A DNA stretch of 55,460 bases from Spirochaetota bacterium. GTDB taxonomy: Bacteria > Spirochaetota > UBA4802 > JAFGJZ01. The stretch is from NCBI GenBank assembly GCA_029554345.1, contig JAKPJF010000185.1, forward strand, positions 1 to 55,460, given 5' to 3'. Positions 23,727 to 25,453 of this stretch are shown piece after piece (the first letter of the stretch is position 1; each line of letters opens with the position of its first letter). The position numbers were made by a program, and so were the translations under genes. The notes under the pieces were generated by a model. That model did no database searches, was not told the origin of the DNA, and saw nothing but the letters and a program-made list of their open reading frames with translations.

Positions 23727-23753
23727 TCAGCACTCAAAATATGGGAGTGCTAA
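23727..23753. promoter_or_regulatory. CIRCE operator (HrcA binding site)
   Basis: TCAGCACTC (23727-23735), nine-base spacer, GAGTGCTAA (23745-23753). The consensus is TTAGCACTC-N9-GAGTGCTAA, so there is one mismatch. It sits between the hrcA promoter and the hrcA ATG, at the predicted transcription start, where bound HrcA would block initiation. Confidence 0.96.
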
Positions 23754-23783: not shown

Positions 23784-23885
23784 GTTTTTTAATCAAACGG
23801 TTTAAAGATTCAATTAAATTTCAAATTCCATTCAAAACTTAAAAAATCTCTCCTTTTATTCGTAATAAATTCATAGGAGTATTTT

Positions 23886-24335
23886 ATGAAAAAAATAAAA
23901 TCAACATTGCTAATAAACAAAAAGGCTTTCCTGCATATTTCAGATTTATGCAGGAAAAATAAAACTACAATATCAAAATCAATAGAAAGAATATTAACAG
24001 AAATGATTAAACTTCAGTTTTCCACCAATAATGTTAAAACTTTCTCATCCGTAAAATATCAAAAACGCGGCGAAGAATATTCTCTTGTTCATTACAGCAC
24101 AGCCCCTAACACATATGAGTCCTTGCTTGATATTAGAAAAATGGCAAAATTATCAATATCAAGAATGCTAAGCGATTTCATTTTAAATTTTCTTAAAAAT
24201 AAAGACGATATGCAATATTTTATGATTTTTTTTACAAAAAAATGTGATAGGAATCAAGTATATTACAATATTATGTCTCATTTTAATATTGCCAGTCAAA
24301 CTTTACGCATAGCAATAGCAGCAAAACTCGAATAG
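23886..24335 (+). CDS. Unknown protein with two ribbon-helix-helix-like units
   Basis: 149 residues; no named family recognised. Two segments share a layout of a short strand, then helix-turn-helix: DLCRKNKTTISKSIERILTE with EMIK (about residues 19-42) and DIRKMAKLSISRMLSDFILN with FLK (about 82-104). They line up on Asp, Lys, Thr/Ser-Ile-Ser-Lys/Arg and a final Lys. This resembles ribbon-helix-helix DNA-binding domains (CopG/Arc type), and two in one chain could make a single-chain pseudo-dimer. The protein is strongly basic with no signal peptide. An AGGAG site lies before the ATG. It diverges from the heat-shock operon. A DNA-binding role is inferred from the fold pattern only. Confidence 0.6.
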   Translation: MKKIKSTLLINKKAFLHISDLCRKNKTTISKSIERILTEMIKLQFSTNNVKTFSSVKYQKRGEEYSLVHYSTAPNTYESLLDIRKMAKLSISRMLSDFILNFLKNKDDMQYFMIFFTKKCDRNQVYYNIMSHFNIASQTLRIAIAAKLE

Positions 24336-24413
24336 CAAAGCTTATTTAAGGCAAATAAGTTTGATTTGACAAAAATGGACATTTCAGACTCTCTGTTCTC
24401 ATGGGGTGATTAT

Positions 24414-24605
24414 ATGAGTATGCCTGGATTCGGAGAATTAGTAGTAATCTTTTTAATAATACTTTTTGTTTTCGGAGCTGGCAAAATCCCGAGAATTGCC
24501 AGAGAAATTGGCTCAGGAATAAGAGACTTCAAAAAAGCAATGAACGGCGACGATTCAAGCGAAACAGAAGAGATAAAAACGAATAAAAAAAGCAAAAAAG
24601 CATGA
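24414..24605 (+). CDS. tatA: Sec-independent translocase subunit TatA/E
   Basis: 63 residues from the ATG at 24414, with GGGGTG six bases upstream. The open frame reaches back to a TTG at 24366 that forms part of a TTGACA sequence and is not a likely start. The short N-terminus MPGFGELVVIFLIILFVFGA is the single TatA membrane helix. It is followed by the hinge GKIPRIAREIGSGIRDFKKA, which forms the amphipathic helix, and a charged tail. TatA oligomers form the pathway for folded, twin-arginine substrates; TatC is not in the window. Its stop overlaps the start of the next gene (ATGA). Confidence 0.93.
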   Translation: MSMPGFGELVVIFLIILFVFGAGKIPRIAREIGSGIRDFKKAMNGDDSSETEEIKTNKKSKKA

Positions 24606-25453
24606 TTATTCTTTCCGGCTCAGATTCACTTCTTGCACAAAGCATACTTCCTCTTCTTCGAGAGAAAACTAAAGTTTTCGCCTTTGATCGCACAAGAGGA
24701 AGCATAAATGATCCAAACTTTCTTTCAAAGCTTGCAGAAGAAACTAAAGCTTCTATTTTCATAAATTGCGAAGAAATGAATAATGATGAAGAATGCGCCT
24801 ATAAAAGAGAAGAAGCTTATAGCATCAATTCTTTTGCTGCTGGAGAAATCGCAAAGGTTTGCAACAATTTCAATATCAAACTTATTCATATTAGTTCAAG
24901 CTTTGTTTATAGTGGGAAAGAAAACATTCCCTACTCTGAAGCCGACAACGCCGATCCTCAAAACGTTTTGGGAGACTCCAAGCTATTCGGTGAAAAAAAA
25001 ATTATTGAATCCGGATGCGATCACGTCATTTTAAGATTTCCGCAGATTTACGGCAAAGGAAACTCTTTTATTACCGACGTTCTCAGAGATTCAACCGGTT
25101 CTCGTCTCATACAGGGGCAAATTATTTCCTCTTTATATTCAAAAGACGCTGCATCTATTATCGATTCAGCAATTGAGAAAAATATCTCCGGAACATATAA
25201 TGCATCAAATTCGGGCGGCTCTGATATATTTGAATTTTTTAATTATTGCAACAAGCTTCTTGAAAAATATTCGGGAAAAAACATCATCGCAAAATTTACT
25301 TCTGTTGACTATACAGATTTTCTAAGCGCCTCTGAACCAATTCTATACAATGACCTGAATATTTCAAAAATAGAAACAACACTCGGAATTAAATTACGTT
25401 CCTGGCAGGAAGCTCTCGAAGAATACATGAAAGATTACCACCAATTCATATAA
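24602..25453 (+). CDS. RmlD-like dTDP-4-dehydrorhamnose reductase homologue lacking the catalytic Tyr
   Basis: 283 residues, the right length for RmlD, which reduces dTDP-4-keto-rhamnose to dTDP-rhamnose with NAD(P)H. Family features are the N-terminal nucleotide fold (IILSGSDSLLAQSILPLLRE), INSFAAGEIAKVCNNFNIKL, HISSSFVYSGKENIPYSEAD, and the C-terminal FSSLYSKDAA-like region. The YxxxK catalytic pair normally reads NVYGRTKLAGE, but here it is NVLGDSKLFGE: the Tyr is Leu (Leu-Gly-Asp-Ser-Lys). The dinucleotide loop also lacks the usual GxxGxxG glycines (GSDSLLAQ). The gene may therefore encode an inactive, regulatory or altered-substrate protein, as with MAT2B-like relatives. It overlaps tatA by four bases. 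Confidence 0.75.
   Translation: MIILSGSDSLLAQSILPLLREKTKVFAFDRTRGSINDPNFLSKLAEETKASIFINCEEMNNDEECAYKREEAYSINSFAAGEIAKVCNNFNIKLIHISSSFVYSGKENIPYSEADNADPQNVLGDSKLFGEKKIIESGCDHVILRFPQIYGKGNSFITDVLRDSTGSRLIQGQIISSLYSKDAASIIDSAIEKNISGTYNASNSGGSDIFEFFNYCNKLLEKYSGKNIIAKFTSVDYTDFLSASEPILYNDLNISKIETTLGIKLRSWQEALEEYMKDYHQFI

Follow-up and report, generated by a model that had tools for sequence, protein, structure and literature searches.

A predicted single-chain double ribbon-helix-helix protein family of spirochaetes and a DNA box that appears constrained inside its own genes

Ribbon-helix-helix (RHH) repressors of the CopG/Arc/MetJ type dimerise from two chains, and MetJ, which serves here as an analogy, reads an 8-bp box per dimer. 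Natural RHH proteins made of a single chain are already known (TraY and AvtR), and the fold alone has precedents. F-plasmid TraY is described as a single polypeptide that contains the complete fold of an RHH dimer (PMC12117103). According to a review (PMC5569661), the AvtR chain carries two RHH motifs in tandem; the protein binds DNA as a monomer, acts as repressor of its own gene and is proposed to oligomerise along DNA (in one figure legend of that review the labels of AvtR and SvtR are interchanged). For Leptospira, passages of two papers (PMC3493377, PMC12457778) show RHH proteins only as toxin-antitoxin annotations. A literature search for paralogous RHH proteins in spirochaetes returned, among the matches listed, none that by its title concerned a family of the kind described here. 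We compare with these systems a gene found in a 55,460-nt stretch of DNA from a Spirochaetota bacterium, the whole of which is called the window below. G numbers denote genomes (G000 being the genome to which the window belongs, or own genome) and L numbers the loci of the analysis.

The window gene and the predicted fold of its product

The features of the gene are collected in Table 1. It is divergent from hrcA, and the CGT of its upstream motif sits 25 bp ahead of the start codon. As a sequence-only reading of the locus had stated, the product is basic, unrecognised and encoded divergently from the heat-shock genes: we count 26 K/R versus 12 D/E, and neither Pfam (only a sub-threshold match, E = 0.041) nor NCBIfam recognises it. 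The sub-threshold Pfam match, to the HTH of Tc3 transposase, was rejected as an identity for the protein, and the Ras-like and other PDB matches returned by a sequence-only search were attributed to chance (E of at least 0.35). Just upstream of hrcA, at window positions 23727-23753 on the minus strand, lies a CIRCE element, TTAGCACTC-N9-GAGTGCTG, about 130-160 bp ahead of the start of the RHH gene. The family upstream motif is ~100 bp closer to that gene, and on this argument, which rests on motif positions only, heat-shock control through the CIRCE element is not favoured. Directly downstream of the RHH gene there is a TatA-like ORF (24366-24605), followed by an RmlD-like ORF (24602-25453), both named by eye.

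Table 1. Positions of the features of the window gene (window coordinates)
Feature	Position	Strand	Description	Basis
Putative single-chain double RHH gene, 149 aa	23886..24335	+	ATG start	
AGGAG ribosome-binding site	23875..23879	+	upstream of RHH gene	
RHH unit 1 (predicted)	23895..24026	+	strand residues 4-11, helices 12-25 and 29-47	AlphaFold2, profile
RHH unit 2 (predicted)	24078..24197	+	strand residues 65-72, helices 74-87 and 91-104	AlphaFold2, profile
VKYQ motif	24051..24062	+	common to window protein and DUF1564	
C-terminal region	24198..24332	+	three predicted strands	AlphaFold2
Degenerate embedded site GATAGGAATC	24246..24255	+	two changes from GATAGTTATC	
Upstream motif TATTCGTAATAA	23857..23868	+	family consensus taTTCGTATtaa; putative -10 promoter element or operator	

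The same reading had proposed that two similar segments, each preceded by a strand-like stretch, could let one chain form an RHH dimer; structure prediction had been suggested as a check, and a model without an intertwined ribbon or helix pairs, or lack of profile similarity between the segments, had been named beforehand as a refutation. Neither of these two conditions spoke against the proposal. The two look-alike segments do exist (residues 19-42 and 81-104, 62 apart) and share D20/D82, K26/K88, T28/S90, I29/I91, S30/S92, K31/R93 and K42/K104. Within the window sequence alone their similarity does not exceed chance, since the best 24-residue diagonal was matched by 111 of 500 shuffles and the best 40-residue diagonal by 67 of 500. 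The profile similarity is present: with family profiles built from 69 sequences, unit 1 aligned to unit 2 without a shift of register over 36 columns (probability 79%, P = 1.5e-5), and neither profile aligned with the C-terminal region. On this profile evidence we regard the homology of the two RHH units across the family as real.

AlphaFold2, given the window sequence together with 10 own-genome paralogues, predicted the strand-helix-helix arrangement twice in a single chain, with a strand ahead of each segment (pLDDT 79, pTM 0.63). Both strands are paired in this model according to DSSP; the pairing partner was not inspected. Confidence is low at residues 104-113 of the C-terminal region, which is the fastest-evolving part of the protein relative to its G001 orthologue. 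The same two-unit plan was predicted for a divergent relative, L052 (pLDDT 74, pTM 0.61). In structure comparisons, both units aligned jointly to the whole of the TraY, AvtR and single-chain Arc structures: for TraY, Z was 10.5 with an rmsd of 2.4 over 102 aligned residues (window model) and 10.7 with 3.0 over 99 (second model); for AvtR, 8.9 with 2.9 over 80 and 8.0 with 3.4 over 82; and for permuted single-chain Arc, 7.2 with 3.0 over 83 and 7.9 with 3.2 over 82. Foldseek placed chains of the F relaxosome first for the window model (E = 4.4e-3, probability 1.00) and found nothing at E 0.001. These chains (9f0x and related) are TraY in our own reading of chain length and fold, the match lists giving only entry titles. 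As far as the models go, F-plasmid TraY is thus the closest solved match of the window protein; the absence of other folds from the match lists carries no meaning. The proposal that one chain forms the RHH dimer is borne out by both models and their structure matches, as a prediction and with DNA binding untested, and the ORF probably encodes a single-chain double RHH protein whose DNA binding is inferred. The predicted DNA-facing residues are K5, T7 and L9 in unit 1 and L67, H69 and S71 in unit 2; these strand positions are presumed from the general RHH pattern and are not drawn from any solved complex.

A multi-copy family in one order of spirochaetes

Eleven dispersed family members were found in the own genome, a 3.03-Mb draft; a further match, in contig C32, lay inside a 1022-residue SbcC-like ORF and was dropped. 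The family is present in 22 of 39 genomes of the order (own genome included), with 1 to 39 matches each at an E-value of 0.01 or better, and a broader profile gave 17 to 40 matches in four genomes, some of them cut by contig ends. When 296 genomes of the phylum were scanned, with at most 13 candidates scored per genome, 24 matched at E 1e-4, of which 23 belong to the same order. Relatives that carry a name come from Spirochaetes or Spirochaetota MAGs (seven of seven loci), and the family member L097 had no match in phage and plasmid collections. Y58 of the VKYQ motif is invariant in alignments A1 and A2, and Q59 in A1.

The 18 own-genus copies form one clade (100/99); the family expansions are therefore largely lineage-specific. 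Within a genus, however, copies are orthologous and syntenic: all seven G001 copies are syntenic with own-genome copies, and 12 of the 13 G013 copies have a syntenic locus in G026. Movement of the family as a mobile element within a genus, which was considered, is not favoured in view of this synteny. Family proteins of G000 and G001 share 56-87% identity, against more than 90% for 22 of 28 listed neighbour matches, and thus evolve faster than their neighbours. In six of the seven G000-G001 orthologue pairs dN/dS is 0.15-0.40 (the seventh is saturated and has no defined value), and the genes are therefore under purifying selection.

The gene set used for the counts below has 99 rows. It is complete for G000 (11/11), G001 (7/7) and G013 (13/13), nearly so for G026 (16/18), and partial for G002 (4/16), G004 (5/18), G005 (11/14), G008 (8/40), G010 (7/38), G020 (8/17) and G003 (9 rows, 7 of them distinct, of 31); copies from these last seven genomes are those among the matches listed, or the best-scoring ones. 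The truncated copies L111 and L114 were left out of the codon, covariation and site counts (L114 also out of the tree), and two duplicate proteins without a site were dropped for the 97-gene count and kept in the 99-row tables.

The box inside the genes and elsewhere in the genomes

Most family genes examined contain, in the 3' half and after the second RHH unit, the 10-bp quasi-palindrome GATAACTATC. Among 97 distinct genes, the exact site occurs in either orientation within codons 100-150 in 44, and a site with at most one change in 69; in a control stretch of the same genes (codons 20-70) the numbers are 0 and 4. The range of codons 100-150 misses at least one known site (L081). The box is in frame in 68 of the 69 genes, where it encodes a conserved C-terminal Asp-Asn-Tyr for which the codons GAT AAC TAT are used almost without exception. 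Among own-genus genes, AAC TAT is found at the site in 15 of 15, with AAT used for 145 of 187 Asn residues elsewhere in these genes. Over the whole set, the Asn column is AAC in 54/56, the Tyr column TAT in 57/58 and the Asp column GAT in 63/63, the simulated means for the commonest codon being 33.7, 41.9 and 49.0. A codon scan of 85 columns placed Thr-Asp-Asn-Tyr among the outliers (z of 7.1, 4.3, 6.4 and 4.6); additional columns scored high (V91, R84, L95, G146, E5 and I94, z 4.1-6.7) because the null of the scan ignores relatedness. The codon exceptions, all outside the own genus, are L111 (TAC) and L120, L206, L211 and L214 (AAT), and the AAT forms give a perfect palindrome or nearly so.

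Where the protein motif varies, the DNA stays close to the box: DNN is written GATAACAATC, YSY TATAGTTATC and HNY CATAACTAT, and DSY is GATAGTTATC, the reverse complement of the site. Reverse-orientation boxes occupy the same place in four genes, and in L197 and L209 Asp is lost with the box kept in reverse; that the site is kept in both orientations argues for duplex DNA. These comparisons, which rest on sequences only, show the embedded box to be constrained at the DNA level. The window gene itself has only a degenerate box, identical in its G001 orthologue, and no intact box was found in the window gene, in L013 or in the divergent G003 subfamily (which does have His69). As a genome-wide element the degenerate form is not supported: GATAGGAATC has six copies in the own genome versus one for the backwards control, near chance for such a 10-mer. 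The boxes of L014 and L097 (His69; Arg5 and Glu5) and of L226 (Thr69, Arg5) are drawn from GATAACTATG, GATAACTATC and CATAACTATG. A literature search for GATAACTATC returned nothing on spirochaetes by title, and one for an RHH site within its own coding sequence found nothing.

A second codon-constrained spot was seen at the SVS codons of RHH unit 2, where Val-Ser is written GTT TC in the Val-bearing genes of G005 (10/10), G004 (4/4) and G002 (4/4), GTT making up only a quarter to half of the other Val codons there; the pattern is absent in G008 (0/2) and G010 (2/6).

Most family genes are also preceded by the motif taTTCGTATtaa (EM on 67 upstreams), usually 22-48 bp ahead of the start and often behind an A/T tract. 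At a score of at least 9 it occurs in 43 of 71 family upstreams versus 10 of 285 neighbour upstreams; for G013 and G026 together, 22 of 29 family upstreams have it, versus 14 of the 648 regions ahead of ORFs in an 800-kb part of G013 (two of the 14 precede family genes). The matrix was trained on the family and is a description, not a blind test. The motif may be an operator, or else a promoter used by an alternative sigma factor. In G013, a Y1/RAYT-like transposase gene (C3:168887-169517, within L235; named by eye from its NHIHLLI motif) is preceded by an A/T tract and a CGTATA motif as in the RHH family, and the first gene of a type III restriction-modification-like island (C3:51077-57105; by eye) has a family-type upstream motif.

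Copies of the box are dispersed in the genomes that have the family. GATAACTATC has 1490 copies in the 22 genomes with the family versus 110 for the backwards control, and 61 versus 90 in the 17 genomes without it; the medians per megabase are 17.5 and 0.74 (Mann-Whitney P = 2e-7). In three family genomes (G010, G014 and G029) the density is not above the highest non-family value. The flanks of the box differ by lineage: the 14-mer CCGATAACTATCGG occurs in 16 of the 39 genomes, all 16 with the family, and has 129 copies in G013 and 0 in G000, and GGATAACTATCC is absent from G013 but occurs 17 times in G000 and 7 times in G001 (against 0 and 1 for the controls), as well as 9 times in G019, 5 in G004 and 4 in G005. 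The variant CATAACTATG is enriched in G010 (33 versus 5 for the control) and G020 (12 versus 1), where family genes carry it, and in G005 (10 versus 2), where one family gene does (L125); this search was chosen after CATAACTATG had been seen in the G010 and G020 genes. By coordinates, 9 of the 33 copies in G010 and 4 of the 12 in G020 (one at a match edge) are inside family genes, and the rest are elsewhere.

In 800 kb of G013, 38 of 58 boxes are intergenic although ~90% of the sequence is ORF, and 23 of these 38 belong to two arrays with a 21-22 bp period. One intergenic region of this genome (C2 280385-280711; L261) contains 16 head-to-tail boxes in 21-22 bp units. In the own genome, 30 of the 36 copies were viewed in context: unrelated ORFs contain 22 of them and family genes 2, and the other 6 are located between ORFs, where two hairpin-like pairs in C12 account for four. 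These inverted pairs (C12:1758-1788 and C12:3739-3769) read GGATAGTTATCC-AAAAAAC-GGATAACTATCC and are hairpin-capable. Boxes lying mostly within ORFs do not make the pattern of a simple promoter operator. The core ATAACTAT was found within 200 bp upstream of 16 of the 99 family genes, about 20-130 bp before them, and upstream of none of the other 83; in 11 of these 16 genes the upstream and internal 10-mers are identical, also where the form is a variant, as in L016 (G..G) and L125 (C..G). In L206 the two boxes share their ends, and in L097, L104, L211 and L218 they differ. At three loci of G034 (L147, L148 and L150), GATAACTATC is interleaved with a second repeat, GGGGTCAGAGCA/TGCTCTGACCCC, with a 42-bp period in L147 and L148; a sequence similar to this second repeat is present upstream of the Y1 transposase gene of G013.

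Residue-base covariation, possible readings and known systems

Covariation was analysed in the 75 of 99 rows with a site of the form NATA(AC/GT/AT)TATN, the 24 rows without one being excluded. Base 1 is G or C in 71 rows, and in 69 of them it matches residue 69 (His with G in 61, non-His with C in 8; the exceptions are L136 and L210). Base 10 is G or C in 66 rows and matches residue 5 in 59 (Arg with G in 14, non-Arg with C in 45; seven exceptions). When both residues are considered, genes with non-Arg/His have G..C in 43 of 50 cases, those with Arg/His have G..G in 8 of 13 and G..C in 4, those with Arg/non-His have C..G in 6 of 7, and the five with non-Arg/non-His have five different forms. 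Paralogues within a single genome, G020, differ accordingly: the His69 genes L198, L206 and L214 have G first, and the Arg5 non-His69 genes L202, L218 and L226 start with C. From a midpoint-rooted FastTree tree, we counted ~4 switches of residue 69, ~3 of base 1, 9 of residue 5 and 8 of base 10. The Fisher P-values of the two pairs (4e-9 and 2e-8) are overstated, because the independent events are few. In these alignments, each end of the box tends to covary with a residue predicted to face DNA, the two residues belonging to opposite RHH units. Because the Asp codon begins with base 1, part of the covariation of this base with residue 69 could lie within the protein; how a mid-strand residue would set an outer base is not obvious geometrically.

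We consider it likely that the product is a single-chain RHH pseudo-dimer of a multi-copy, site-specific family in which each chain binds the box of its own gene, binding and regulation being inferred. One chain would form, as predicted in both models, the two-stranded ribbon for which two chains are usually required, and would bind one box through it, an inference without binding data that the residue-base covariation supports indirectly. Unit 2 (residue 69) would set base 1 and unit 1 (residue 5) base 10, and the two ends of the box would be able to change separately. Boxes upstream of some genes and inside genes could serve self-regulation by blocking or looping, and those dispersed elsewhere may be other targets of the protein; both suggestions are inferred. 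The window copy would have kept the protein and the upstream motif, with the internal box only degenerate. A wider interpretation, which we prefer by a modest margin of belief only, is that the family writes its own site into its own gene, that the units read opposite ends, that specificity and address change together while copies multiply and acquire new targets, and that the genome-wide boxes form an address system with lineage dialects.

It remains possible, if doubtful, that the protein is mainly a site-specific chromosome organiser, comparable to ParB with its parS address, and not a transcription regulator. This concerns the use of the box and not its binding, and it overlaps with the pseudo-dimer reading. 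Both protein and box are present in many copies, the boxes are dispersed and partly phased at ~two helical turns, most of those in the own genome are inside ORFs, and a parS inside the parB gene is a precedent. Box numbers, however, do not scale with gene numbers (40 matches and 87 boxes in G008, 13 and 264 in G013), and the boxes ahead of 16 of the 99 family genes suggest regulation.

We think it unlikely that some other factor reads the box, such as a master regulator or a protein of partition, uptake or recombination, with the RHH genes only as its preferred carriers or targets. The location of the box in coding sequence, its 21-22 bp arrays and its occurrence mostly in unrelated ORFs of the own genome are unlike the usual operator and would suit such a factor, as would flanks that vary by lineage. 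Yet the outer bases covary with residues of the very RHH protein that the gene encodes, and the G020 paralogues differ in base 1 according to residues 69 and 5; a single outside factor would not track each of them.

Very little speaks for Asp-Asn-Tyr as merely a protein motif, with residue 69 covarying with residue 121 through an intramolecular contact. The box is almost always in frame, and a change of base 1 from G to C turns Asp121 into His121; but AAC and TAT are fixed against local codon usage, two genes without Asp have the box in reverse, and the DSY, DNN and YSY variants hold the DNA pattern or nearly so. In addition, copies are enriched outside family genes, and base 10, which covaries with residue 5, belongs to a codon with a freely varying amino acid. 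Least credible of all is a REP-like mobile or parasitic repeat present in family genes by chance and unread by the RHH protein: the intergenic excess in G013 (much of it in two arrays) and the upstream motif shared by the Y1-transposase-like gene would agree with it, but the box keeps its place in genes that share, across families, about 20-30% identity, is enriched only in family genomes and covaries with the protein.

The pseudo-dimer reading has a practical side. The targets of regulators are seldom known, and protein-DNA recognition codes are therefore hard to read from sequence; here most genes examined hold the presumed target inside, and protein-site pairs could be read straight from genomes. 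If the reading is true, an RHH recognition code becomes testable, in a natural case of specificity split between the halves of a chain. It would also provide the first clue to what this large and unnamed family does in an order of uncultured spirochaetes, and possibly a clue to DUF1564 too.

DUF1564 (PF07600) is collinear with the family over both units and the YQ motif and is likewise a multi-copy family of this phylum (9 of 149 genomes). The two align with hhalign over 102 columns (E = 1.6e-4, probability 50%), and the family HMM matches 4 of 20 DUF1564 loci (E = 3e-7 to 9e-6, values that apply to a small ORF set; two of the four are near-identical), so that a distant relationship is supported with moderate strength. 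The window protein has no match to the DUF1564 Pfam model above the cut-off, and the own genome has 0 matches. GATANNTATC is absent from the 20 DUF1564 genes checked, with one match elsewhere in a DUF1564 locus, and a literature search on DUF1564 found nothing. CopG/Arc/MetJ repressors share the strand-helix-helix units; CopG is the best PDB sequence match of the family profile, a weak one to unit 1 only (E = 0.57). An unsystematic inspection by eye of 11 own-genome loci revealed no recurring neighbour that might be a type II toxin-antitoxin partner.

AvtR (4hv0) is an archaeal viral protein, from Acidianus filamentous virus 6, with 12-15% identity, and its 91-residue chain is without the C-terminal extension, unlike the window protein. 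TraY, the top solved match of both models, shares with the family a complete RHH dimer fold within one chain. No relaxosome genes were recognised, among ORFs judged by eye, around the window gene or in 10 flanking own-genome loci. TraY differs in sequence (8% and 16% identity), and the family, in contrast to it, is chromosomal and multi-copy and has a C-terminal extension and an embedded site. What is new beyond the known single-chain RHH proteins is this self-carried site with its two-ended covariation.
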